IMG/VR virus record: IMGVR_UViG_3300027847_002504
Coordinates: 50,791-114,790 of that record
Reading direction: 5' to 3' (one strand)
DNA from: a virus
Length of the DNA: 64,000 nt
Shown here: one piece after another, positions 3,519 to 59,692 of the stretch
Layout of the letters: each line of letters begins with the position of its first letter
Position numbering within the stretch: position 1 is the stretch's first letter
Made by a program: the position numbers and the translations under genes
The notes under the pieces: model-generated
What the model saw: the letters and a program-made list of their open reading frames with translations, nothing else
What the model was told of the DNA's origin: nothing
Database searches by the model: none

Positions 3519-3537
3519 TTTTTAACCAATAATTAAT

Positions 3538-3731
3538 CTTTTAGGCTCGTAAGCAGGATTTTGTTTCAACCTCGTCATTAATCTTTGCCGCTACCCGGCT
3601 TCACAGTGCTTCTCACACACTCAGCCTGTTTGCGTTGCTACCTCGGTAGTGCTATCCGGTTTTCCGTCCTACCTTAAGAAGTGTAGTCCTGACTTTCCTC
3701 TGGTTTAACCAGCGACGAGTCGGCCTAAAAG
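3538..3731 (-). ncRNA. rnpB: RNase P RNA (compact bacterial type)
   Basis: About 194 nt. The ends form a perfect 9-bp P1 helix: CTTTTAGGC at 3731-3723 with GCCTAAAAG at 3546-3538. P2 is CTCGTC (3719-3714) with GACGAG (3576-3571). Conserved region I reads GAGGAAAGTCAGGACT and conserved region V reads ACAAAATCCTGCTTA, matching the family signatures GAGGAAAGTCCGGGC and ACAGAACCCGGCTTA. P4 pairs CAGGA (3691-3687) with TCCTG (3558-3554), a compensatory change from the usual CCGGG/CCCGG. GATTAATGACGAG parallels GATGAATGACTG of E. coli. The specificity region is shortened to about 110 nt. RNase P RNA is the ribozyme that trims tRNA 5' ends. A promoter lies just upstream and many tRNA genes lie nearby. 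Confidence 0.87.
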
Positions 3732-6823: not shown

Positions 6824-6910
6824 TACATCGGGAGGGATTCGAACCCCCAGTGGAGCCTTAGCTCTTCAGATTAAAAGTCTGATACCTTCAGCCAATTCGG
6901 TCACCGATGC
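6824..6910 (-). tRNA. Chimeric class II tRNA with anticodon UUU
   Basis: Acceptor GCATCGG/CCGATGT, discriminator A, no encoded CCA. The D arm (GACCGAATTGGCTGAAGGT) and long variable arm (GAGC TAAG GCTC) are those of a serine-type class II tRNA. The anticodon arm is TCAGA-CTTTTAA-TCTGA, giving UUU (Lys), nearly the same arm as the normal tRNA-Lys at 14574. T arm GGGGG-TTCGAAT-CCCTC. The body predicts seryl rather than lysyl identity. Confidence 0.75.
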
Positions 6911-15360: not shown

Positions 15361-15498
15361 ATGGGATCGTGTATTAACCATGGAATTTCCTTGTGTATTA
15401 TCGACACCTCCTCTTTTGGATATTTCAAGACCGATGGGGCGAAGAAATATTTGATGATAATTACGGATATTATTAATGACAAATTAGCCGAGGGTTAG
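15361..15498 (+). CDS. Possible small protein downstream of the pseudoknot RNA
   Basis: 45 codons from an ATG: MGSCINHGISLCIIDTSSF continuing to YLMIITDIINDKLAEG. Composition is protein-like, but no ribosome binding site is evident. If real, the folded RNA at 15254-15343 would be its leader. Confidence 0.3.
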   Translation: MGSCINHGISLCIIDTSSFGYFKTDGAKKYLMIITDIINDKLAEG

Positions 15499-15544
15499 TT
15501 CGTTTCCGATTAGTGCCACGTGGAGGCTTGTCATTATACTAATC

Positions 15545-15624
15545 TAGCGGAAGCAGGAGTCGAACCTGCAATCTCCAACTTATGAGGCTGGTATGGTCTA
15601 TGTATCCACATCCACTCTTCCGCT
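15545..15624 (-). tRNA. tRNA-Met(CAU) with enlarged D loop
   Basis: Acceptor AGCGGAA/TTCCGCT, discriminator A, no encoded CCA. Anticodon arm CCAGC-CTCATAA-GTTGG, T arm GCAGG-TTCGACT-CCTGC. D stem GTGG/CCAT with a 15-nt loop. May be elongator Met or Ile2 depending on base 34 modification. Confidence 0.8.
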
Positions 15625-15628
15625 ATGG

Positions 15629-15721
15629 CTGTGAGAGAAGGCGTCGAACCTCCAGCCGCTAAGTCCATGGAACTTTACAGTTTTCCTGATGAAAGCATAG
15701 TACTTTCAATCAATCCTCACA
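15629..15721 (-). tRNA. tRNA-Tyr(GUA)
   Basis: Class II body: acceptor TGTGAGG/TCTCACA, T arm GGAGG-TTCGACG-CCTTC, long variable region. Anticodon region GGAAAACTGTAAAGTTCC carries CTGTAAA with one extra A in the arm. No encoded CCA. Lies 4 nt from the tRNA-Met gene. Confidence 0.7.
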
Positions 15722-25252: not shown

Positions 25253-26344
25253 ATGTCTCAACCCCGATTAGCGATCAAAAGTCTTACTCTTAAAAACTTT
25301 AAGTGTTACGAAGATTTTCACTTAAACTTCTCAAATGACGAGGGTATCTATCTACTGTTCGGCCTGTTCGGTCCCAACGGCAGTGGTAAAACTACGATTT
25401 TAGACGCTATAACTCTCGCGATGTCAACCTTCGCCGCATACGATTCTGATAGAATTGAGGTGTCAATGAGAAAATGCATTCGTAATTACAAACAGATGAC
25501 CGTGCCAGAGCAGGAGAAGGCTAACTTTTTGATTGAGGCGGAGATTAGTTCCGAGTTCGGAGATTATAGTATCGCCATCGACAAGAGTGGATACCTCCGT
25601 GAAAAGGGCCACCCGAAGGAGATTGCGGAGACGCTCATGCGTCAATCTTTCAGGACGAGATATGACGAAGAGCTACATACTTTTCAACTTCGACTTGAAC
25701 AATGGGAAGAATTCAAAGAACTCTTCGAATCCGTTACAGGATACAAGGTGGATAAAGTCGAGTGTCCGATGTCTCCGTTCACAGTTAATCTTAACAACGG
25801 AAACTTAAAAAATCGCGCCGCACAGATGGATGAACACGTTTTAGGATTGACGATAACTAAGCCCAATGAGACGATTTCTGACCGAGAGTGTAGTAAGGGG
25901 GAGAAAAAGATCATAAAGTGCTTCACAACGTTGTTAAACAAGGAAATAATGCCATCTGTGGTGTTGATCGATGACGTAGAGATGCACGTAGAGTTGAGTC
26001 GTCACATGGCTCTGGTTGGCTGCATTGAAAAATGTTTCCCAAATTGTCAAATAGTTTTTACGACGCACAGCCCGAAAATAATTCACGGTTTTGATATTGA
26101 TCGGATGATCGACTTGACGGTCAAAAGCAAGATCGGTCAGAAAACCTGGCGCAAGGAGTTGATTAGGATTTTGACGCAGAGTTTGTTTTTCCCAAATGAG
26201 TCTCGAAACGAGGAATGTATCGGAGATATGTTGAAGCAGTTGAGAACGGTGGAAGATCTCGATAAGGATTGGGCTAAGCACGTTTCTGCCGAGGCTATTT
26301 TTACAATTAATAACCAGTTACTCGAAAGGATCGAAAAAATATGA
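25253..26344 (+). CDS. AAA/SMC-like ATPase (RecF/OLD type)
   Basis: 363 residues. The N-terminus LTLKNFKCYEDFHLNF is the typical first strand of RecF/OLD/AAA_15 proteins. Walker A GPNGSGKTT (about 40-48), signature SKGEKK (214-219), Walker B VVLIDD (236-241) and the switch His in TTHSPK (H272) are all present. Only a short insert separates the lobes, with no coiled coil or TOPRIM nuclease. Such ATPases act in DNA repair, recombination or anti-defence. Its stop overlaps the next ATG by 4 nt (ATGA). Confidence 0.8.
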   Translation: MSQPRLAIKSLTLKNFKCYEDFHLNFSNDEGIYLLFGLFGPNGSGKTTILDAITLAMSTFAAYDSDRIEVSMRKCIRNYKQMTVPEQEKANFLIEAEISSEFGDYSIAIDKSGYLREKGHPKEIAETLMRQSFRTRYDEELHTFQLRLEQWEEFKELFESVTGYKVDKVECPMSPFTVNLNNGNLKNRAAQMDEHVLGLTITKPNETISDRECSKGEKKIIKCFTTLLNKEIMPSVVLIDDVEMHVELSRHMALVGCIEKCFPNCQIVFTTHSPKIIHGFDIDRMIDLTVKSKIGQKTWRKELIRILTQSLFFPNESRNEECIGDMLKQLRTVEDLDKDWAKHVSAEAIFTINNQLLERIEKI

Positions 26345-27132
26345 AAAAACCTGGGATATCAGTGTGTTTCGTAATTAGAAACGGGATGAGAAATGGTTAT
26401 CCGTTTTGGGAATCTCTAAATTCTTGTCTTGATTTCGCTGATGAAATCGTAATCAGCGAGGGGCACTCAGATGACGACACATACGTATACATGGAAAAAT
26501 TCAGATACCTTCACCCCGAAAAGGTTAAACTTTTTAGAACTAACTGGAAGAAGAGTGCTCACGGTGAAGTTATCGCTACCGTATCTTCAGAGGCGCTAAA
26601 AAGATGTTCACACGAATGGGTCTACTATCTTCAGGCGGACGAAATTATTCACGAAGACAACTGGCAGTTCATCAAAGGAATTTCTGAAGGTAAGCAGGGG
26701 AAAGTAAACTCCGTTAAATTCATGTTTAACCACTTTATTGGATCGTGGACACCCTTGCCAAAAGGTGCCGCAGCATACAGCGCCGCGATTCGGATGGTTC
26801 GGAACGTACCAAGCATTTCCCTCATGGGAGACGCTTGGACTTTTGAGGGGGGGATCGACCCAGTAGTCGCGCCGACCATGCCACCAAAACCAATTTATCA
26901 TCTCGGCTGGGTCTTCCCTAAAAATTGCGACGAAAAAAGTATTAGTCATGCGAAAATTTATTCTTCAATGCCAGCGTATCAAGAGCAAGCGGACAAGGCC
27001 AAGAAAAGACAGAGCGAAGGTTACGATGGAGAAGTTGGACTCCCAAAACCAGACAACTTTGACGACTTTCCAATTGGCGTAGAAAGACTTCTTGGTATGT
27101 TTGAATATGAACCACCGGATGAGGCCAAGTAA
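26341..27132 (+). CDS. Glycosyltransferase, GT2-like
   Basis: 263 residues. ISVCFVIRNGMRNGYPFWES, then DEIVISEGHSDDDTY and the acceptor-side YYLQADEIIHED (a DxD-like site) match a GT-A glycosyltransferase. It would transfer a sugar from a nucleotide-sugar donor in the cytoplasm. First of six to seven consecutive glycan genes with 1-4 nt overlaps. Confidence 0.75.
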   Translation: MKKPGISVCFVIRNGMRNGYPFWESLNSCLDFADEIVISEGHSDDDTYVYMEKFRYLHPEKVKLFRTNWKKSAHGEVIATVSSEALKRCSHEWVYYLQADEIIHEDNWQFIKGISEGKQGKVNSVKFMFNHFIGSWTPLPKGAAAYSAAIRMVRNVPSISLMGDAWTFEGGIDPVVAPTMPPKPIYHLGWVFPKNCDEKSISHAKIYSSMPAYQEQADKAKKRQSEGYDGEVGLPKPDNFDDFPIGVERLLGMFEYEPPDEAK

Positions 27133-27845
27133 TGCACACATTGCCGTATAGCGTTGTTATTTGCAGCTATAATAAATTAGAATCTTTAATGATAGTCCTT
27201 GATCGAATCCGTGAAAACGAGAGATGCCTTGAGATAATTTTGGTTGATGACAAATCAACAGACGAAACTATGGATTGGGCGAGAGATTCTAATTTTTTCA
27301 ACCATATCTACCAGCGTGGCCAATCTGGTCAATACAGATTGAATGGCAATAGAAATATTGGTATTTCTCTCGCGAAACACGAGCACATTGTTTTACTCGA
27401 TGCGGATTGCGCTCCAGAAAAGAAATACTTTGAGGGTCATGACCGTGTTTTCTGGCACCACCCAGGAGTTATTTCCGTTGGTATGACTGATCGATATAAT
27501 TCGAACGGAAAGTTCCTACAACAAAAAGATCCGAGAAGGAAAGATTTCAAAGATGGAAAACCATTGGTTGGTATCAATTGGTCCAAGGCTTATGGTGGTA
27601 ACGTTTGTTTCACAAAGGCTCTCTGGAATAAAATTGGTGGTTTTGACGAGGGCTTTGATGGAGCCTGGGGCTTCGAAGATCTCGATTTTTCTAAACGTGC
27701 AGCAAATATTAAGATACTATGCAAAAGTCATAAGTTTTCGACGACACGACATCTACATCATAAAGTTTCTGAATTAGCTAAGAAGGGTGGCAGCAACGGG
27801 AGAAATTCGAATCTGTTCCATAAAAAACATGGTATTAAATTTTGA
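27132..27845 (+). CDS. Family 2 glycosyltransferase
   Basis: 237 residues. YSVVICSYNKLESL, EIILVDDKSTDET, VLLDADCAPE (DxD metal site) and a C-terminal GFDEGFDGAWGFEDLDF block are the standard GT2 signature, as in galactosyltransferase-like enzymes. Its start shares a base with the previous stop (TAATG). Part of the glycan cassette. Confidence 0.88.
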   Translation: MHTLPYSVVICSYNKLESLMIVLDRIRENERCLEIILVDDKSTDETMDWARDSNFFNHIYQRGQSGQYRLNGNRNIGISLAKHEHIVLLDADCAPEKKYFEGHDRVFWHHPGVISVGMTDRYNSNGKFLQQKDPRRKDFKDGKPLVGINWSKAYGGNVCFTKALWNKIGGFDEGFDGAWGFEDLDFSKRAANIKILCKSHKFSTTRHLHHKVSELAKKGGSNGRNSNLFHKKHGIKF

Positions 27846-33430: not shown

Positions 33431-35182
33431 ATGGAAAAGAAAAATAAAGGGAACAACGTTAATTTCTTATCTAACGCTGTCACCGAAATAAGAAAAAAGA
33501 ATAATCTTGTTATAGAAGAAGGCGAGACTGAAGAAGGTCTAATAGATGTTATATCTTTTTGTGAAAGGGACGACATGATGGCCCTACCTAAAAACAACCT
33601 TGTTTTATTTTTAAGTCAGAGAGTTATTCTCAAATCATTCTATTACGGAACTCCTGGTAATGAAAAAACAGAGTTTACGGATGAAGAATGGAACTGGCTA
33701 TACGCCAAGAGCCAAGATTCGGCCATTGAAAAGTTAAAAAGAAAAGTTGATGGGGTCAATCCCGGAGAACCTCACAATTTCAATTTTATGGAACTAAATC
33801 TCGCCTGCGGTAGACGTGCGAGCAAGACCCTTCTCGCATCAGTTATTTGCGCTTACGAGTCGTACAAGTTAATCAAGCTTGGCGATCCATATAAGCATTA
33901 TAACATCCCATACGATGAAGAGATAGCAATATTGAATGTGGCAAACTCCCAGAAACAGGGTGGAAGATTGTTTTCACAAGTTAAGGCGAGGATAAGAAAT
34001 GCTCCATTTTTTAAGGGGAGAGTTCAGGGAAAGGGAGACTCGTCATCTGAGATAAGATTGTATACAGATATCGATCTTAGAAAAAAAGACGATCCAGATA
34101 TGAATATCGCTGTTGAGGGATCTATTGTTTTGATATGCGGACATAGTAACCCGGACAGTTTGCGTGGTTATTCAGCTATTTGTATCCTGTTTGATGAGCT
34201 ACAGTACTACACTGAACACCCAGTTGTTTCAGGAAGAGACTTCTATAACGCTTTGATTCCGTCCATGGCAAAGTTTGACACATATGGTGGAGGAAAGTTG
34301 GTGGAGTTATCCACGACTGGTATTCCGTCTGGAATTTTCCATTCAATACATAAGCAGGGGCAGAGTATTGATAAGCAATTTGACAGAATTCTTGGGTTTC
34401 ACCTTGCAACATGGGATATTAATGATGAATTCCCATATGATGGCGACTATTTGACAATGTTGAGAAGTAAAGACCCAGAGGCTTTCAATATTGAGTTTGG
34501 CGCAATGTGGTCTACAATGGGCTCTGTACATAAGTACTTCCCTGAAGACAAGGTTATGGGTGCAGTTGACCCTAATCTTAGTATGGAGGACCAAAGAGAC
34601 CGTGGCTGTGAATACTTTATGCATATTGACCCGGCCTCAAAACACGACACTTACGCTTGTGCTGTTGTTAAAAGAGTGAGATATGTCACATCGTCTGGGG
34701 AAAAGAGGTTTAAGATAGTATTAGCCTTCCACGCGGTCTGGAAACCACAGCCAGGTGTCGGTCTTGATATTGTAAAGTTGGATGATGAAATTCTTGAAAT
34801 AGCAAGAATATTTAAGCCTATATCAGTAACATATGACACGTGGAATAGTGTTCATTCCATAAGCTACCTGAGTAATAAGGGGTTTTACGCCAAGCAGTTA
34901 CCATTTGGAAGAGGTCCAAAGGCTAATTACTACAAAAACCTATTCGATCTCATGGACAGGAGAGAATTGGTTCTTTATGGAAGCGATTTGGTTGTTGGTG
35001 AAATGCTTAATATTAAGTATAGACCAACACAGAGGGGGGTCCAGATTTTTCCTGACCCACAGGCTGATATAACCACGGATGATCTTCTTGATTGTGTCGC
35101 TGGTGCTGCCTGGATGGCTATCGGTAGAGTTCTTAAAAATCCTCTCCCGCAGGGAGTTGTTGCTAATATACACTTTACATAA
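33431..35182 (+). CDS. terL: Terminase large subunit
   Basis: 583 residues. GRRASKT (about 127-133) is the Walker A variant, CILFDE (251-256) is Walker B, and the C-terminal nuclease has FMHIDPASKHDT (D400), VTYDTWN (D469) and ITTDDLLD (D551). This packages DNA into the prohead through the portal and cuts the concatemer. It follows the hypothetical gene with 2 nt between and lies in the same long transcript. The family is that of large-phage terminases; the packaging strategy is not visible. Confidence 0.93.
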   Translation: MEKKNKGNNVNFLSNAVTEIRKKNNLVIEEGETEEGLIDVISFCERDDMMALPKNNLVLFLSQRVILKSFYYGTPGNEKTEFTDEEWNWLYAKSQDSAIEKLKRKVDGVNPGEPHNFNFMELNLACGRRASKTLLASVICAYESYKLIKLGDPYKHYNIPYDEEIAILNVANSQKQGGRLFSQVKARIRNAPFFKGRVQGKGDSSSEIRLYTDIDLRKKDDPDMNIAVEGSIVLICGHSNPDSLRGYSAICILFDELQYYTEHPVVSGRDFYNALIPSMAKFDTYGGGKLVELSTTGIPSGIFHSIHKQGQSIDKQFDRILGFHLATWDINDEFPYDGDYLTMLRSKDPEAFNIEFGAMWSTMGSVHKYFPEDKVMGAVDPNLSMEDQRDRGCEYFMHIDPASKHDTYACAVVKRVRYVTSSGEKRFKIVLAFHAVWKPQPGVGLDIVKLDDEILEIARIFKPISVTYDTWNSVHSISYLSNKGFYAKQLPFGRGPKANYYKNLFDLMDRRELVLYGSDLVVGEMLNIKYRPTQRGVQIFPDPQADITTDDLLDCVAGAAWMAIGRVLKNPLPQGVVANIHFT

Positions 35183-36297: not shown

Positions 36298-37320
36298 TTG
36301 CAAATTAAATCATATAGAACGACGATGCCGTTCTTGGACGATAAGCTTAGTCCTATAACCGACAAAGGCCGCGCTCTAAATATTGATAGAGATCTTAAGA
36401 GAAGAAAAGATTTAGATAAGGGTTTTTCGGACCATACTGGAATATCAAGTCCTGACACGGTAGATATATCTTGGCATATCAACGACCCGTTTCATGGGGA
36501 AGACCTTTGGAATAGATCAGGATTACTTGGCGATAAAGTAAGACGATTTGTTGTGTATTTAGAAGGCGGTAAGCAGGTCGTTTATGAAAACAGACCTATT
36601 CATGAGATAGTTGCGGATCTTGGTAAGAAGAACAAAAAATGGCGTCTAATATCCCCCATGGCATCAAGCGATGATACTATGATGAAAACCGCCAATAAAG
36701 AAACGGAAATGGTTCCAATCGTCGCAGATCTTCTATCTTCATGCTTTAAGATAGAGACAGAGTCTCACACCCACGGGGTCAAAGAGGTGGGATCTTGTTT
36801 TTTTGTTAAACCAAACATCCTCATCACATGCGCACACGTAATCAGTAGAAACGAGGAACGCTTTGAAAGTGTATCGGCGTATGTTATAGATGGAGACAGA
36901 CAGTATTCGGCAACAATATTAGACGTTGACTATGAATTGGATATCGCTGTTCTTTATTGCGACTCTGTAAAACACACAGAGGTAGAGCCTAAAAGAATCG
37001 ATTCGGTCGGCGTCGGAGAATCTATACTTTGCGTTGGTAGCCCATATGGTTATGACAATAATGTGTCACGAGGAATAATCTCGTCTAAAGACAGAGAGAT
37101 AAATAGCGGAAGCAATTATTTCTTTATGGATTTATCTGTGTATCCAGGATCAAGTGGCGGAGCGGTTGTTGATTCGTCAGATGGAAGGGTTTTTGGGATA
37201 GCCGCCGTAATAGTGGAATCAGTAGGAAATTACGGGTTAAATGCAGGTATCCCTATAGATGTTTGTTTTAAGAGGTTTTCAAAGTTTTTACAACAGGAGG
37301 TAAGTGATGAAAATATATAA
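36298..37320 (+). CDS. Trypsin-like serine protease
   Basis: 340 residues starting at TTG (TGAGGGG 6 nt upstream). The catalytic triad is clear: H180 in NILITCAHV, D215 in YELDIAVL and S286 in YPGSSGGAV, in an HtrA/trypsin fold without a PDZ domain. The N-terminal 140 residues are a separate region. Located between terminase and the large CCA-domain protein, it may mature virion precursors, though the usual phage prohead proteases have a different fold. Alternatively it could act on host proteins. Confidence 0.82.
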   Translation: MQIKSYRTTMPFLDDKLSPITDKGRALNIDRDLKRRKDLDKGFSDHTGISSPDTVDISWHINDPFHGEDLWNRSGLLGDKVRRFVVYLEGGKQVVYENRPIHEIVADLGKKNKKWRLISPMASSDDTMMKTANKETEMVPIVADLLSSCFKIETESHTHGVKEVGSCFFVKPNILITCAHVISRNEERFESVSAYVIDGDRQYSATILDVDYELDIAVLYCDSVKHTEVEPKRIDSVGVGESILCVGSPYGYDNNVSRGIISSKDREINSGSNYFFMDLSVYPGSSGGAVVDSSDGRVFGIAAVIVESVGNYGLNAGIPIDVCFKRFSKFLQQEVSDENI

Positions 37321-37686: not shown

Positions 37687-40122
37687 ATGAATCCAGAATT
37701 GCAAGAGATAGAACAGAAGGTTGACACAATTGAGCAGAACGTAGGCTCAGGAAATGTTAATTCTGATGAAATTTCCGGGAGATTCCCCGGCGCTTCCGAG
37801 GCTGTTTCGTTAGTTAACGAATTTGCTGGGGGAGATCTGTTGAAAAATGTAGCATACATTTACAATTCTACTGATGTAGATGCATTCGGGGTTTTCAACC
37901 CATCATTGAACGAAACAGTTGATTGGGTCAGGGTTAAGAAAGAGCTTGAAAGATCTGGTTATGTAACTAATATTCCAGAGAGCCCTTCAGAAAGTGATCT
38001 TCTATATGCATATTCTCCAGATAAAGATCCAGAAGAAGTGACAGAAGAGATGAGAAGACTTTTTGAAAAGAAAAAATCTGAAGGTGGAAGCGTTATTGGC
38101 ATCGATATTGCAAGAATCATGGATATTACTGACCAAATGATTTTGGACTCCGATCCAGATACGATTACCGAGGATGATAAGAACAACCTTCGAAAAGTTC
38201 AGTTAGCTTCCATTATTGCCCACGAAGCCTTACATGCCAAAGGTGGGGACGAAGGCCCATGTCAAGAGTTGCAAAATTCCCTTCTTTCTTGGGGGATGAA
38301 TAGGTTTAACCTGCCTTTTGAAACGACAGGGGAAATGACTCACGCTTCAAATGAAAATAGTTGGTATAGGAAGGCTCAGATCGCCCCGTTCCAGTGGAGT
38401 CTAATTGAAACAGTGTTGAGATCCAATCAAGAGGTTAACTTTCAAGAATTCGCTACCGAAGGGACAAAGTATGACTCAGTGGAAACCCTTCTTGAAAACA
38501 ATCTTCACACTGGTGACGAATCGGGAGATAAAACTTGTGAGGAAAACCTTACTCAAGAAAGGAAAGAGAAGGGGGTTGCTGAGACAGAGTCTGTAACGTT
38601 AGAGAAAATGTTAATGGACAAGCTTCCTCACGCTTTGATTATTCCTATTCAAAAAGCGGCATCGACAAATAAACTTATTAAGTTCGCGTCATGGAGAAGT
38701 AACGTTGGTGGCCCGCATATTGGTGGCGTCTTTGGATATCTAAATGGATTTAATGCGGGTTGGAGAGAGCCATTTGAGGCTGATGATATTTCTGACACCC
38801 ATGGATATTACGACGGAGAATCTTCAGACAGAAGATATTGGATGAGAAGATATGATGAAAGGTACGGTAGGGGTAAAATAGCCAAAGATAGATTTGGTAG
38901 ATCTTACTGGAAAAATGATATCCAGATTGACCTTGCTTCACCAGAACATAGGAATAGACCAGAGAAGTGGAACGATAGAGATACTTATTGGTCTGGCCGA
39001 TCCGATTTTGGTACTGCTGGGGCAGTTGGCAACTCTCTTTATAATGTGACAGATAACGAATCTAAGAATTATATTGTTCAAATATTGAGAAGGGTTGGGT
39101 ATTATAAGAAGATGGTTTTGTCAAAAAAGATAAATGTAGCCAGGCTGATTGTTCATGAAGACGCTTTACCTCATGTTGTTGACGCATTAGGAGATTTTCC
39201 GTATGCAATATTTGAGAATGACAATCTCAAGGATAAAGTTGTAGTTTGGATTACTGGGGATGAAGACTTAGAAGATATTAAAGAAATTGAGGACAATGTA
39301 AACTCTGGATCTAACATTGATCGTGTAAACTCATTTGTTAACCTTCAGGGAAGACTTAAGGAAACAATCAATAAGATACTTAGTAAGTGTAAGATATTAT
39401 CACAGACATATGGGATAGAAGACTGTTTCGTAGTTGGTGGATTCCCAAGAACATTGGCAACGACAAAGAATTTCCTTGAGGTTAACGATCTTGATTTCAC
39501 ATCTCCGGTAGTCGAGAACGTTCAAAAACTTGGCGGTCTTCTTGCGGCAGATCTTGGTATTGTCGATATCGGATTTAGCCAAAGAACTGGAACGATGAGT
39601 TATGAGTATGAAGGCGTATCGATGGACTTTCGTGGAAAACGTATTTTCACAGAGGGTGTAAGACCGCTTATGAGAGAAGAGAATATCTCAACGACCCCAA
39701 TTCACTTAGACGTGTATGCCAGAGACTTTACCGTCAATAGTCTACTTTATAGTTTTATTGACAATAATATCTACGATATAACGGGAAAAGCCATGGATGA
39801 TATTGAGGCCAAGATTGTTAGACCGATCCTCAACCCAGACGTTGTTATCCCGATTAATCCGCTCATGGTTACGAGGGCGATCATATTAAACCTTAGAGGA
39901 TATTCTATAGACCCAGAGCTTGATGAGTCGATTCATAGAAATAAAGAATTATTGTTTGACGGCGCGAAGGTTTCTGAAAAGAGATTGGCATATGAATATG
40001 AGAAGATCATAGGCTACGGCCCTGACGGAGAATACATGCTAAAGGAATACGGCCTTGAAAAATTGAAAGAAATACATGCAAAAGTAGTTAAAGAGCAGCC
40101 GGAATTTTTTGAAACAGTATAG
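37687..40122 (+). CDS. Large multidomain protein with HEALH motif and CCA-adding-like head
   Basis: 811 residues. Around residue 179, IIAHEALHAKGG is an HExxH zinc-protease-like motif. At about 225, SWYRKAQIAPF repeats the WYxKAQ pattern seen elsewhere. From about residue 570 the chain matches the class II nucleotidyltransferase head: VVGGFPRTLAT (GGxxR), NDLDFTS (DxD, about 601-603), YARDFTVNSLLY (RRDF-like, about 678) and YDITGKAMDDIEAKIVRPI, as in CCA-adding enzymes and poly(A) polymerase I. All three acidic and basic signature positions are kept. The C-terminal helical body is short, so specificity is open. A role in repairing or completing tRNA 3' ends is attractive because several tRNA genes here lack CCA. 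Confidence 0.75.
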   Translation: MNPELQEIEQKVDTIEQNVGSGNVNSDEISGRFPGASEAVSLVNEFAGGDLLKNVAYIYNSTDVDAFGVFNPSLNETVDWVRVKKELERSGYVTNIPESPSESDLLYAYSPDKDPEEVTEEMRRLFEKKKSEGGSVIGIDIARIMDITDQMILDSDPDTITEDDKNNLRKVQLASIIAHEALHAKGGDEGPCQELQNSLLSWGMNRFNLPFETTGEMTHASNENSWYRKAQIAPFQWSLIETVLRSNQEVNFQEFATEGTKYDSVETLLENNLHTGDESGDKTCEENLTQERKEKGVAETESVTLEKMLMDKLPHALIIPIQKAASTNKLIKFASWRSNVGGPHIGGVFGYLNGFNAGWREPFEADDISDTHGYYDGESSDRRYWMRRYDERYGRGKIAKDRFGRSYWKNDIQIDLASPEHRNRPEKWNDRDTYWSGRSDFGTAGAVGNSLYNVTDNESKNYIVQILRRVGYYKKMVLSKKINVARLIVHEDALPHVVDALGDFPYAIFENDNLKDKVVVWITGDEDLEDIKEIEDNVNSGSNIDRVNSFVNLQGRLKETINKILSKCKILSQTYGIEDCFVVGGFPRTLATTKNFLEVNDLDFTSPVVENVQKLGGLLAADLGIVDIGFSQRTGTMSYEYEGVSMDFRGKRIFTEGVRPLMREENISTTPIHLDVYARDFTVNSLLYSFIDNNIYDITGKAMDDIEAKIVRPILNPDVVIPINPLMVTRAIILNLRGYSIDPELDESIHRNKELLFDGAKVSEKRLAYEYEKIIGYGPDGEYMLKEYGLEKLKEIHAKVVKEQPEFFETV

Positions 40123-40131
40123 GAGGTCAAA

Positions 40132-40593
40132 ATGCCAGTCCCAATAGTACCAATGAATACAGATTATTTGATGTTAGATCAAAACAAACCAATGACCCCT
40201 CAGGTTGATTACGGTATAGATGTAAGCCTGTTACCATTTGTTACAGAAAAACAGTCGAAAGCCAATGATATCATAAAGGTCAGCAATTTCGAGGCGGGAA
40301 TACTTTTCAAGCTTTGGAAAGACAGTAGCGGTAGCGCCAGTGATGAAAAGATACCTATTCCAGAGACGGTAAGTCAGAACGACGTTTTAAGGCTAAAAGC
40401 CTCTGGTCTTATAAGTGGAGATATAGAGACTTTTACGTACACAAGCAGAGGGAGAGAGGTTATTAAGACTCTGGTTCTTTCAGAAGAGAATAGTTTTGAT
40501 AAGAGTTCTGAAACCAAGGGGCTCCAGGAAATTCTCGCTGATAAAAAGAAGAAATTTGGAAATGGACCAAGACTCTCTGTGGGTAAAAAGTAA
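40132..40593 (+). CDS. Hypothetical protein
   Basis: 153 residues. A Pro-rich N-terminus precedes a helical domain (SQNDVLRLKASGLISGDIETFTYTSRGREVIKTLVL) that looks like a winged helix. AGGAGG precedes the ATG. The stop overlaps the next gene's ATG (TAATG). Confidence 0.55.
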   Translation: MPVPIVPMNTDYLMLDQNKPMTPQVDYGIDVSLLPFVTEKQSKANDIIKVSNFEAGILFKLWKDSSGSASDEKIPIPETVSQNDVLRLKASGLISGDIETFTYTSRGREVIKTLVLSEENSFDKSSETKGLQEILADKKKKFGNGPRLSVGKK

Positions 40594-40814: not shown

Positions 40815-41741
40815 GTGGCTGCGAGTGAAAAAAAGACAATTAATTTAATGGTAGATGTCGCAAACGACCCCTACACAAGAGAGCAGGGGCTGATGTACAA
40901 GAAGCATCTCGGAGAAAATCGCGGGATGCTATTTTGCTTTGCGTCAGATAGGCACCTTAGTTTCTGGATGTCTAACACCTATATTCCCTTGGACATAGCC
41001 TTTTTGAGTAGCGATTTCAAAGTGTTAGATATTAAACCCTTGATACCATTATCTCTAAGGCCCGTAAAGTCATCGACAAAATGTAGGTACGCACTTGAAG
41101 TTAATCGTGGGTGGTTTGCTAAGAACAATGTTGTGGTTGGTCATAGTTTTGGAGACAGTATAAAAACAGCCGGAGCCGAAGAGTTTAACGTTAGAATAAC
41201 ACAGAACTTTGTTGACGCCCTTGATTTCGCAATAAAGAACGGGTTGAACATGGAGATATCCTATATGTACACCGGTGGCCACAGAGGCATGTTAGATCAT
41301 CAATTAGCAACAAGTGGAACCGCCAAGCTTCCAAGCGGTAAAATATTTGAGAGGGACGGCGACAATATAACTGTTGTTGATTTAACTAGAGGCGGTCAAC
41401 CAAGAACATTTAAGTTGGATGATATCGTTGGGTATCAATTTATAACAAAGGACGGCCCAGTTAACCCTCATGACATTAGAAATTATTTAACCTCTATTGA
41501 AGAGGGAAAAGATCATGAGCAGCGGGCGAGAGAGACGCTTGAACAAGCGCGTGATCAAATTGAAATGTTTGACCCTAATCGAATAGATGTAATTGATACA
41601 AAAAGAAGAGAACCGCCCGTTCAAGAGACCCCGCCACCGGATACTCAAGTACAGGATGTTCCGGTACAAAATGTTCCGGTGCAGGAAAAACCACCAAAGA
41701 AGAAGACCTTTCTTGATGATTGGTCAGATCTAATTTCATAA
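40815..41741 (+). CDS. DUF192 protein with WYL-like and Pro-rich regions
   Basis: 308 residues from a GTG with GGAGG upstream. Residues about 5-110 are DUF192 (REQGLMYKKHLGENRGMLF and the FWMSNTYIPLDIAFL core). Residues about 140-235 resemble a WYL-type small domain (LDFAIKNGLNMEISYMYTGG, RTFKLDDIVGYQF). A Pro/Gln-rich tail with VQEKPPKKK ends the chain. DUF192 proteins are usually small secreted proteins, so the fusion is unusual. Confidence 0.65.
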   Translation: MAASEKKTINLMVDVANDPYTREQGLMYKKHLGENRGMLFCFASDRHLSFWMSNTYIPLDIAFLSSDFKVLDIKPLIPLSLRPVKSSTKCRYALEVNRGWFAKNNVVVGHSFGDSIKTAGAEEFNVRITQNFVDALDFAIKNGLNMEISYMYTGGHRGMLDHQLATSGTAKLPSGKIFERDGDNITVVDLTRGGQPRTFKLDDIVGYQFITKDGPVNPHDIRNYLTSIEEGKDHEQRARETLEQARDQIEMFDPNRIDVIDTKRREPPVQETPPPDTQVQDVPVQNVPVQEKPPKKKTFLDDWSDLIS

Positions 41742-41967: not shown

Positions 41968-43590
41968 ATGGCACTTTCAAATTGGTACGCAGACTTAGCG
42001 CTACCGGGAAGCAATGCTTCTTCGGTGAATCAGGAGGGAAATTACCCAGACGATTTTCAATGGAATAATAAAAACCCCATTGATGATGTGTCATTCTATT
42101 CTTCTTGTGATGAGGTAGACGCTTTCAATAATCCAGAAAAGGGAGAGTTGAAAAACGTGATGATCAATGGCCCGGTAGTTATGGCAACCGGATCAAGATA
42201 TAAGGAGAATATTTTCCCCGCTATTCTTGGTGATCAAATAAGCAGTTCAAGTTCTTCCAGCAGCTGTTCTTCCAGTAGCTCGTCGAATAGTAGTTCAAGC
42301 TGTTCTTGTTCTTGTTCTTCATCATCAAGATCTGGTAGCTTTAGCTCATCAAGTCTTTCCTCAAGTTGTAGCTCATCAAGTTGTAGTTGTTCATGTAGTT
42401 CCTCAAGTAGTAGTTGTTCCTCAAGCTGTTCCTCAAGCTGTTCCAGCTGGGAAAGCTCATTATGTAGTTGCTCTTCAAGCTGTTCAAGTTGGGAAAGCTC
42501 ATCACTAAGTGGTGTAGGAGAATTTTATTGGGAGGCAAAAGCCCAGTTCGAAGCTCCAGAGTCTGGCGGATCTGTTCTTACATTGACAGAATTCAATAAT
42601 ACCGGGCTGTATTCTGGAACCGCTCCAGCTTCATGGGTAAGAGACCCACTAACAATGTTGAATAAAGATGTGACTAAGTACAATTTTTTCACAGGCGTTT
42701 ATTTTGACAGTTTCTCTGTCACATTTAGAAAGAAATATTCTGGCGAAGGAACGCCACCGCTTCCAACAGAGTCTTTTGCCAGAGCAGGATTCGAGGTTAC
42801 CTATAATGCTATTGAAGATATTGATGCTACATCCATTGTTAGGATAAAGAGTGCAAAACTTACAGGTGCTCCAGTAACTACCACGTGGAATTTTTTATCG
42901 TGTTGTCCCCCACCCGACGCCTATTGCTTTTACATAAAAAGGCAGGGCAATGACACTGTTCCGACACCTCCATCAACACATGCCGCCTGTACCGTTTGCA
43001 TATCAAGTAGCTCATCGAGTAACTCTTGTAGCTCGTCAAGTAGCTCAAGTAGCTCAAGTTGTTCGAGTTCATGTTCAAGTTGGGAATCAAGCAGTAGTTC
43101 GTTTAGCAAATCGAGCGAGTCTATAAGCTCCGTCCAGGCCATTGGTCAATGTTCACCTGGAGAATCGTGCGGAACAATGACTATCAAATTTAAGACGTAT
43201 ACGATTCCAGACAGATTGACCGTTACAGATAATACCGGAAGTATATTGGATACGGGATCAATATCTACTTATCAGAATTACAACACCTATATTGTTGAGG
43301 CGACTTGTCCTGTTGAAGTTTGCGTTCAAGCACCATTAGCTGGCACAGCATGGATTATTGATATCACAGGGTGCGACTTTACATTGAATCAGTCTGGCGG
43401 TCAAGTTAGTTCCCTTTGTTGGACAAATTCAAGCAGTTCGTCAAGCAGCTGTTCAAGTTGGGTGTCAAGTAGTTGTTCATCAGAAAGTATTAGTTCTTCG
43501 TCGAGCTATTCGCTCTCGTCATCATCAATGAGTTTCTCAAGCAGCAGTAGTAGCTGTTCAAGTAGCTGTTCAAGTAGTAGCAGTATATAA
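41968..43590 (+). CDS. Ser/Cys-rich virion-type protein
   Basis: 540 residues. Three tracts of Ser with interspersed Cys (about residues 91-180, 346-385 and 487-540) separate folded segments: an N-terminal region, a middle beta-rich domain (FYWEAKAQFEAPESGGS) and a second beta domain (MTIKFKTYTIPDRL). The tracts use all six Ser codons mixed with TGT/TGC, so they are not simple DNA repeats. They look like surface linkers or glycosylation targets. The gene that follows is a capsule-type glycosyltransferase. Confidence 0.75.
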   Translation: MALSNWYADLALPGSNASSVNQEGNYPDDFQWNNKNPIDDVSFYSSCDEVDAFNNPEKGELKNVMINGPVVMATGSRYKENIFPAILGDQISSSSSSSSCSSSSSSNSSSSCSCSCSSSSRSGSFSSSSLSSSCSSSSCSCSCSSSSSSCSSSCSSSCSSWESSLCSCSSSCSSWESSSLSGVGEFYWEAKAQFEAPESGGSVLTLTEFNNTGLYSGTAPASWVRDPLTMLNKDVTKYNFFTGVYFDSFSVTFRKKYSGEGTPPLPTESFARAGFEVTYNAIEDIDATSIVRIKSAKLTGAPVTTTWNFLSCCPPPDAYCFYIKRQGNDTVPTPPSTHAACTVCISSSSSSNSCSSSSSSSSSSCSSSCSSWESSSSSFSKSSESISSVQAIGQCSPGESCGTMTIKFKTYTIPDRLTVTDNTGSILDTGSISTYQNYNTYIVEATCPVEVCVQAPLAGTAWIIDITGCDFTLNQSGGQVSSLCWTNSSSSSSSCSSWVSSSCSSESISSSSSYSLSSSSMSFSSSSSSCSSSCSSSSSI

Positions 43591-57409: not shown

Positions 57410-59692
57410 ATGGAAATGGTAGTAGCCGATCTCGAAAAGCACTTCAACAGTCTTAAGAGGGGTGAACGATTAGAGGCGAGCCCGAATACAACGTTCGGGC
57501 AAGCGCCACAAGCAACACAGACACCAAGGGATTATTCTGCCGCAACGGTTTCCCATTCTAACTTTGGTAGTTACAATAGGAAAACAAAGCAGACGACAGC
57601 TGGAATCTCTTATGGTCAGCCACAGTTCTTTTCTCCTGTATATACGCCAATCAACTGGCAGATCCCATCACGCCGCCGAGAAATATATATGTGGTGTCGC
57701 TATTGGTACGAGAACGAGCCCCGTGTCGCGACCGCTATTGATTTTTACAGCAAGTTCCCTATTACGACTTTCGAGACAGAATGTTCAGATAGATACATTA
57801 AACACTTCTTTGATGAAGAGGTTAACAAGAAACTAAACATTGACAAGTGGGCTCGACTCATTAGTCATGAAGTCCATTTGATGGGAGATTGTTTTCCGTT
57901 CAAAGAAATAGAATGCGACCATTGCGGTGGAAGCGGTAGGATTGGAGATGAAATCTGCGAGCATGAAGGTGGAACGTTCAAGAGGCTCCTAATCCTAAAT
58001 CCCGACTTTGTTGAGGTTTTCTCAAACTCGATTTCACCAGAAGACGTTATCACATACGTTCCAGATGATGAATTGCGAGATCTTGTTATTAAGAGTGGCC
58101 CAGGTACAGATAAGCTGTCAAAAGAAGTGAAAGATTTTATTGCTCAAGGAAGACCAATTCCATTAGATAGCAGAAATGTAAGTCATTTGAAATTTGGCGA
58201 GTCTGGCTATAGAAGATACGGGATCTCGATGACCAGAAGACTTTTCCCGATCTTGAGTTATAAGACGAAGATCATGACCGCCCAATGGATCGTGGCAGAA
58301 AGACTGATCCTTCCTATCAAGGTCGTCAAAGTCGGTACTGAGGAACGTCCAGCGAGCGAAGCGGACATTACTGCCGTACAAGGGCAGCTACAGGCGGCAT
58401 CTAACGATCCTAACATGGTTATCGTTACTCATCATGCATTCGAACTCGATTGGGTTGGAGCAAATGGTCAAGTTCTTCCTATTCAGGGAGAGTACGAGTT
58501 CATCAATCAGGAAATTATGGACGGTTTCGGTCTTAACAAGCAGTTGATTACTGGTGAAGGTCCGACATACTCAAGCGCAGCTATGGGTGCGGAAATAATG
58601 ATTAAGAGACTTGAGTCGTGGAGACTTGAGTTAAAAAGATGGATCGAAGAAGAGATCTACTTGCCGATTTCTAAGATGAAGGGCTTTAGAAAGACCAATG
58701 AATGGGGCGAAGACGAATGGATTTATCCGAAGATAAAATGGGGAAGCTTAAATCTTAGAGACAGACAGCAAGAAAGACAAATGATTTTACAGTTGTTCGA
58801 CAAGGGACTTATTAGTGCCACAAGAGTATTGACAGAGTTCGATATCGATCCAGACACTGAATTCGAGCAGATGAGATGGGAAAGAATTGAAGCGATGGCT
58901 GAACAACCACCGGGACAGGCTGCTGGTGAAGAGGGCGGCATGGGTGGAATGGACATGGGTGGCGGCCTGGGAGGCGGTGGCGGTGGCTTAGACCTTGGCG
59001 GAGGCATGGGAGAACCAGGCGGTGGTGACTTAATGGGCGGAGAAATGGGCGGAGGCATGGGAGACCCGGGCGACGCCGCCCCAATGGGCTTAGCGTCGTC
59101 TAAATCGATTAAAGTAACCTCACAGGCGGACCCTGGACAATACGGCGGAAAGATATTAACTGACAAAACCAGAGAAAAGCTTGATAGAGATAGAGAAAAG
59201 GTTGATAAAGAACAATCAAAGAGAGAGCATAACGTTCAATCCCCCAGCGGGGTTGGTGGTGATGGGTTCATGAGAGATAGAATGGGAAGAATAATGCTTA
59301 CTTCTATTGAGAGGGCGGTTATCAAAGCTATTGAGAACCATCAGAGAAGTGGGAAGATAACATATAACGTATCCCCTTCATACGAAGTGCATACTGGTGG
59401 AAGACCGGTTATGATTGACGTTGCGTTCCCAGATATTAAGCTTGGAGTAGAGTGTGATGGAACTACATTCCACGGCTCTCCAGAGAATATAGAGCGAGAT
59501 AAGAAGAGAGATCAGAAATTAAATAATAAAGGTTGGGTAATAATTAGATTTGGAGAAGAAGAAATCGAAAGTAACATCGGTGGTGTGATGACCAGGATCA
59601 TGAACGAGATAGGAAAAAGAGAGCGCTGGATCACCGAACAAAGGAAAAAGCTAGAGGAAAAGCGTAAAAATAGTATACCTGACAAAAAGTAA
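57410..59692 (+). CDS. Portal protein fused to a Vsr/DUF559-like nuclease domain
   Basis: 760 residues. Residues about 70-490 are a portal core (WQIPSRRREIYMWCRYWYENE, LITGEGPTYSSAAMGAEIM, NLRDRQQERQMILQLFDKGL). Near 169, CDHCGGSGRIGDEICEH is a DnaJ-type Cys-rich insert. A Gly/Met-rich linker (bases about 58930-59090) joins it to a C-terminal domain (about 650-735) with PVMIDVAFPDIKLGVECDG and GWVIIRFGEEEIESN, the core of DUF559/Vsr PD-(D/E)XK endonucleases. The acidic residues D and E of the motif are present. Portals rarely carry nucleases; it could cut host or competitor DNA at entry or assist packaging. Confidence 0.8.
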   Translation: MEMVVADLEKHFNSLKRGERLEASPNTTFGQAPQATQTPRDYSAATVSHSNFGSYNRKTKQTTAGISYGQPQFFSPVYTPINWQIPSRRREIYMWCRYWYENEPRVATAIDFYSKFPITTFETECSDRYIKHFFDEEVNKKLNIDKWARLISHEVHLMGDCFPFKEIECDHCGGSGRIGDEICEHEGGTFKRLLILNPDFVEVFSNSISPEDVITYVPDDELRDLVIKSGPGTDKLSKEVKDFIAQGRPIPLDSRNVSHLKFGESGYRRYGISMTRRLFPILSYKTKIMTAQWIVAERLILPIKVVKVGTEERPASEADITAVQGQLQAASNDPNMVIVTHHAFELDWVGANGQVLPIQGEYEFINQEIMDGFGLNKQLITGEGPTYSSAAMGAEIMIKRLESWRLELKRWIEEEIYLPISKMKGFRKTNEWGEDEWIYPKIKWGSLNLRDRQQERQMILQLFDKGLISATRVLTEFDIDPDTEFEQMRWERIEAMAEQPPGQAAGEEGGMGGMDMGGGLGGGGGGLDLGGGMGEPGGGDLMGGEMGGGMGDPGDAAPMGLASSKSIKVTSQADPGQYGGKILTDKTREKLDRDREKVDKEQSKREHNVQSPSGVGGDGFMRDRMGRIMLTSIERAVIKAIENHQRSGKITYNVSPSYEVHTGGRPVMIDVAFPDIKLGVECDGTTFHGSPENIERDKKRDQKLNNKGWVIIRFGEEEIESNIGGVMTRIMNEIGKRERWITEQRKKLEEKRKNSIPDKK

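Follow-up and report, generated by a model that had tools for sequence, protein, structure and literature searches.

A phage family of class II nucleotidyltransferase heads that keeps the catalytic residues but has lost the EDxxR template

Why would a phage encode, within the gene run that leads from its terminase to its portal protein, a nucleotidyltransferase head of the CCA-adding and poly(A) polymerase type, and does this head mature the phage tRNAs or act on something else? The question is raised by an 811-aa ORF in the window, that is, the whole stretch of 64,000 nucleotides analysed here, which belongs to a 114,790-bp virus record. The ORF combines a zincin-like N-terminal domain, an uncharacterised middle region and a class II head and neck (Table 1). 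It sits between the terminase and portal genes in a run of genes on the same strand, as the initial annotation had recognised in describing a late-operon location, and from this position we infer that the gene is expressed late and that its product may be present in the particle.

Table 1. Coordinates of the 811-aa ORF, its parts and neighbours, and of the RNA-processing genes of the same virus (positions in the window unless another handle is given)
Feature	Position	Strand	Basis or remark
811-aa ORF	37687..40122	+	zincin-like N-domain, uncharacterised middle, class II nucleotidyltransferase head and neck
Zincin-like domain with HEALH, residues 1-222	37687..38352	+	phmmer, hhalign, alignment
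HEALH motif, residues 179-183	38221..38235	+	alignment of 4 sequences
Middle region, residues 223-560, unassigned fold	38353..39366	+	begins near internal NSWYRKAQ
PolyA_pol head, residues 580-712	39424..39822	+	Pfam, AlphaFold, Foldseek, VIA
DLD metal-binding acids, residues 601-603	39487..39495	+	both acids invariant in 7/7 variants and 26/26 canonical enzymes
Template motif position, residues 723-727	39853..39867	+	INPLM versus EDPLR in canonical enzymes
Neck, weak PF12627 match, residues 738-789	39898..40053	+	protein ends soon afterwards
Terminase large subunit	33431..35182	+	PHROG E 1e-24
HtrA/trypsin-like protease, conserved neighbour	36298..37320	+	Pfam 5e-24
Winged-helix-like protein, conserved neighbour	40132..40593	+	7/7 variant loci
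DUF192 protein, conserved neighbour	40815..41741	+	Pfam 5e-27
Portal protein, end of same-strand late cluster	57410..59692	+	PHROG E 6e-50
Complete CCA-HD enzyme, then Tpt1/KptA	G000:C1 25728-28118 (L003 5729-8119)		
RNA ligase	L005 3747-4403	-	E 5e-25
tmRNA	L005 14238-14671	-	91.9 bits
RNase P class A-like RNA, 198 nt	3534-3731	-	63.9 bits (Rfam cut-off 100), E 3e-19
CCA-less tRNA	15546-15615	-	3' end at 15546
HDV-like (theta-type) ribozyme	15475-15544	-	starts directly after the CCA-less tRNA

The three motifs from which a nucleotidyltransferase had initially been recognised, GGFPR (584-588), DLD (601-603) and RDFTVN (679-684), all fall inside a match to the Pfam PolyA_pol family (PF01743; 37.6 bits, E 3e-9, curated cut-off 23), and a phmmer search of the C-terminal 272 residues against the PDB returns poly(A) polymerases and CCA enzymes (E 5e-9 to 4e-4), with bacterial poly(A) polymerase I (PcnB; PDB 3aqm, E 2e-8) among the best matches. 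AlphaFold models residues 540-811 with a pLDDT of 90 and a pTM of 0.84, from an alignment of 32 relatives that are mostly canonical enzymes, so that the model should not be relied on for fine detail. The best structural matches by Foldseek and VIA, whose listings were taken as positive evidence only, are the A-adding enzyme of A. aeolicus and the CCA enzyme of T. maritima (VIA Z about 20, reaching 20.1 against class II enzymes). Together, the Pfam, PDB, AlphaFold and VIA matches establish that the predicted class II head is present. The protein shares with the tRNA nucleotidyltransferases of this class (A. aeolicus 1vfg/4wby, T. maritima 3h39) the head-neck fold, the GG and DxD motifs, the third acid and RD..N; however, it differs from them in the lack of EDxxR and of a body/tail, in its late operon and in its fused HExxH domain. 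The PolyA_pol head is likewise common to PcnB, but the 811-aa protein lacks the template and the C-terminal domains, and its score against TIGR01942 (PcnB) is 35.6 bits, far under the cut-off of 305.65. No body/tail or HD domain follows the neck (13 bits against PF12627, cut-off 22) within the ORF, which ends there and at the first following helices.

This head belongs to a family. Profile scans of IMG/VR yielded six relatives, carried by divergent phage contigs (L012/L092, L013/L093, L094, L095, L096 and L097), and a further scan returned the same six; no relatives came from IMG/VR scans with single proteins, for which the full 811 aa, their C-terminal part, the terminase and the CCA enzyme served as queries. 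The relatives are 288 to 501 aa long, that of L094 (9926-10972) having 348 aa, and all lack a fused zincin-like domain. In a maximum-likelihood tree that took in canonical viral enzymes and the paralogues from the same phages, the seven variants lie on one side of a branch with a support of 100/98, and the branches among them reach 1.7 changes per site. For the seven computable pairs among five comparable variants, dN/dS is 0.07-0.20, with synonymous sites near saturation. Searches with the PolyA_pol family detected two heads in 5/7 records: the second is canonical in the window's virus, L093, L094 and L097, where its template reads DD..R or ED..R; in the L095 record the match is partial and lies at the end of the contig. 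The other two records are of 55 and 83 kb. A scan of genome contigs gave five cellular matches, of which three were read; all three have a D..R-type template, and two lie outside the variant clade, with the third placed next to it on a long branch. A 735-kb megaphage gave a match that was rejected as a family member: this enzyme is of the canonical HD-CCA type, with additional fused domains.

Sequence comparison separates two groups of residues in these variants. The head of the 811-aa protein keeps G584, G585, D601, D603 and D647; GG, DxD and RD..N are kept in 7/7 variants, in which the third acid (position 647) is always D or E. Twenty-five columns are invariant in 26 canonical viral enzymes, and 11 of them are kept in all seven variants. 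Eight columns, G584, G585, R588, D601, D603, R679, D680 and N684, which we take to be those of chemistry and NTP binding, are kept without exception (8/8), versus 3/17 of the others (Fisher p 1.5e-4; the test is post hoc, since the eight were assigned after the conservation table had been seen). In class II enzymes EDxxR serves as the template within the protein that governs the choice of nucleotide, and it pairs with CTP and ATP. It is found in 0/7 variants: its position reads IN..M in the window, IN..I in four relatives, RS..N in L095 and ID..R in L096, the template D (724) and R (727) being each kept in one of the seven. As L096 keeps D and R and L095 has RS..N, no new template motif is fixed. 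By contrast, [E/D/N/Q]DxxR is present in 26/26 canonical enzymes from IMG/VR and in 10/10 enzymes of named phages (36/36 comparison enzymes). In libraries of the human enzyme selected for A or CCA repair, variation occurred at E only and D and R were never substituted (PMC11784652). Also largely missing from the variants are the first R of RRD and the S/E/R/E residues in the neck motif; in the flexible loop (Yxxx(x)SRxP type, with B/A motif) the R is lost in the six relatives, and the window's protein aligns E656 and R663, without S and P.

Motif conservation and dN/dS together argue against decay and, probably, against CCA addition; as the residues of chemistry are kept and the template is lost, nucleotide transfer most likely persists with a changed or relaxed base choice. 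The reading that we prefer, with a probability of about 0.47, is an anciently duplicated nucleotidyltransferase that still looks catalytic, would have changed its nucleotide choice and would most likely use an RNA end as acceptor. According to this scheme, an old duplication of a class II CCA/poly(A) nucleotidyltransferase would have given rise to the monophyletic phage family that includes the C-terminal third of the 811-aa protein, with retention of the metal-binding acids, the GG/R triphosphate loop and RD..N and with loss of the EDxxR template. The acceptor would differ from the tRNA CC-end, an RNA 3' end being the likeliest; DUF192, a winged-helix protein and proteases would be the partners of the variant head in the late or virion gene set, and ordinary CCA addition would be left to the second, complete enzyme. 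We infer both catalysis and acceptor, and active-site conservation can reflect nucleotide binding instead of catalysis. The main rival is a pseudoenzyme, in which the head, without any transfer, would bind RNA, nucleotide or protein or serve a structural purpose, in the virion or during assembly. Such a role would fit the loss of the template, of the first R of RRD and of the neck motif, the fusion of the head to other domains in the window's protein, and the location in a structural gene cluster with a protease among the neighbours; however, the catalytic acids are kept in 7/7 variants over a large divergence under purifying selection, and we consider a pseudoenzyme rather unlikely.

The second enzyme of the window's virus also bears on the question of the tRNAs. 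It is a 532-aa protein (record position 25,728-27,326) with a PolyA_pol head (62 bits), an RNA-binding neck (48 bits) and an HD domain, and a Tpt1/KptA RNA 2'-phosphotransferase (E 7e-44) is encoded about 100 bases after its gene. CCA enzymes are already known from huge and jumbo phages (PMC7162821, PMC7824862). The canonical phage tRNA nucleotidyltransferases (phrog_2244, those of huge phages and the 532-aa enzyme) have a head of the same superfamily as the variant; but those examined keep [E/D/N/Q]DxxR and most of those in IMG/VR bear an HD domain, unlike the variant. The phage tRNA maturation kit that had been suggested from the window is credible, considering the CCA-HD enzyme, Tpt1/KptA, the RNA ligase, the tmRNA, the RNase P-like RNA and the tRNA-ribozyme arrangement; the proposal that the 811-aa protein is its CCA enzyme is not supported. 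The natural CCA enzyme of the kit is probably the 532-aa protein and not the 811-aa protein, because the genome has this separate, complete CCA-HD enzyme and because EDxxR, HD and the tRNA-binding body are missing from the latter. As for the other components, the RNase P RNA is real (E 3e-19), though its 63.9 bits are below the Rfam cut-off of 100 and its 198 nt much shorter than the 367-position model. The synthetase-like genes come down to a single weak match (25 residues, E 3e-4). tRNAs without encoded CCA do have 3' ends at 6824 and 15546, and no tRNA was found at 15629, the third site that had been listed; among 15 Rfam tRNAs read at their 3' ends, 13 encode CCA and these two do not. The HDV-like ribozyme, with 33.8 bits, falls short of its cut-off of 44, and a search of 501 bases gives it an E of 1e-4. 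The tRNA-ribozyme arrangement is reminiscent of theta ribozymes in gut phages; the genomes of these phages show enrichment for a tRNA adenylyltransferase (PMC10879173).

An unusual CCA-, A- or poly(A)-adding enzyme for phage tRNAs, as proposed in the initial annotation, would agree with a fold closest to the A-adding enzyme, with the two CCA-less tRNAs and with the tRNA-processing genes of the genome. Yet the variant has lost EDxxR, a motif kept as [E/D/N/Q]DxxR by every canonical phage enzyme examined, and misses the tRNA-binding body, while the same genome has a complete CCA-HD enzyme and 13/15 tRNAs encode their CCA, all of which makes this proposal highly improbable. With the ordinary enzyme encoded elsewhere in the genome, the late-cluster copy probably has a new job.

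The neighbourhood of the variant heads is itself conserved. Relatives of the DUF192 and winged-helix proteins occur at 7/7 variant loci versus 0/78 loci of other viral PolyA_pol genes, and the HtrA/trypsin-like protease at 5/7 versus 0/78, with flanks of 10 kb at variant loci versus at most 6 kb at control loci and with neighbour profiles built from the variant loci themselves, so that a distant DUF192 near the controls could be missed. The DUF192 gene lies at most about 2 kb from the head gene in 7/7 loci, terminase homologues are found upstream of the head gene in L092, L093 and L094, and one relative of the winged-helix neighbour has a weak HTH match. A DUF192-like protein is also encoded at L125 7968-8534 (MT835470.1) in a gut phage cluster of large ORFs; no PolyA_pol head is present among the listed ORFs around it. 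It is possible, though on balance doubtful, that the new template-free family forms with DUF192, the winged-helix protein and the proteases a late or virion module that would add a non-CCA nucleotide to RNA or protein and might be injected.

A late gene position would also allow packaging of an injected or late host-takeover enzyme analogous to MenT toxins or Gp22, which would add nucleotides to host tRNA or nucleotidylate a host protein. Gp22 (182 aa) of the 43-kb Klebsiella phage fHe-Kpn01 is another short, class-II-head-like phage nucleotidyltransferase with an unassigned substrate, and is toxic in E. coli (PMC7291057); MenT3 is reported to modify tRNA acceptor ends (PMC11541572). The fold of MenT4, however, matches only distantly (VIA Z 6.9), and we regard host takeover as improbable. 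In phage SU10 such a head appears in the proteomics list yet is classed as an early product (PMC4281155), and detection with particles is thus by itself no proof of injection. Under the preferred reading of a duplicated, still catalytic enzyme, a clade that keeps the chemistry without the template, beside a normal paralogue, would offer a direct route to what is added and to what, and it indicates that large environmental phages have an undescribed late-gene module made up of nucleotidyltransferase, DUF192, winged helix and HtrA-like protease. Neither the template-less clade nor the module is described in the open-access literature searched, and since most subscription papers lay outside this search, their novelty is a lead and not proof.

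The N-terminal part does contain the HEALH motif initially noticed there (residues 179-183), and HExxH is invariant in 4/4 aligned zincin-like sequences. An L094 protein bearing HD and tRNA-nucleotidyltransferase domains has a C-terminal end similar to residues 20-214 (phmmer E 1e-5), and hhalign with L093, L094 and L096 gives 88% probability over residues 37-93. In the window the zincin-like domain is joined to the variant head; L093 and L094 have it on the HD part of their canonical CCA enzyme, and L096 encodes it as a gene of its own, two ORFs downstream. These varied associations suggest a functional tie to nucleotidyltransferases. No Pfam peptidase family matched the domain, and the AlphaFold model of residues 1-560 is too poor for use (pLDDT 41). 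A scan with the zincin-like domain gave one locus, on a contig already found, and a match to a small hypothetical ORF of the crAss-like phage cr50_1 (E about 1) was dropped as chance. The canonical CCA gene is split in L093 (11490-15446) and L094 (11563-15308), its head and HD parts being separated by another ORF.

The middle region of the 811-aa protein has no match among the genes that lie upstream in the relatives. At about residues 224-231 the protein has an internal NSWYRKAQ, similar to tags at the N-termini of other ORFs in these phages, which, judging from this resemblance, may mark a gene fusion point; the string WYKKAQ is not mentioned in the open-access literature searched. The proteins encoded at 41968-43590 in the window and at L004 10078-13239 (-) are related to each other (phmmer E 7e-117, a value that may be inflated by low complexity, one of the two having long Ser/Cys runs). 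The short motif W[YF][KR], which the 811-aa protein has at an internal position, occurs in the first 40 residues of 15/266 ORFs versus 16/1228 interior 40-residue blocks, and its carriers look unrelated to one another (window 13622; L003 5729, 9758 and 8299; L004 8641; L092-L097).
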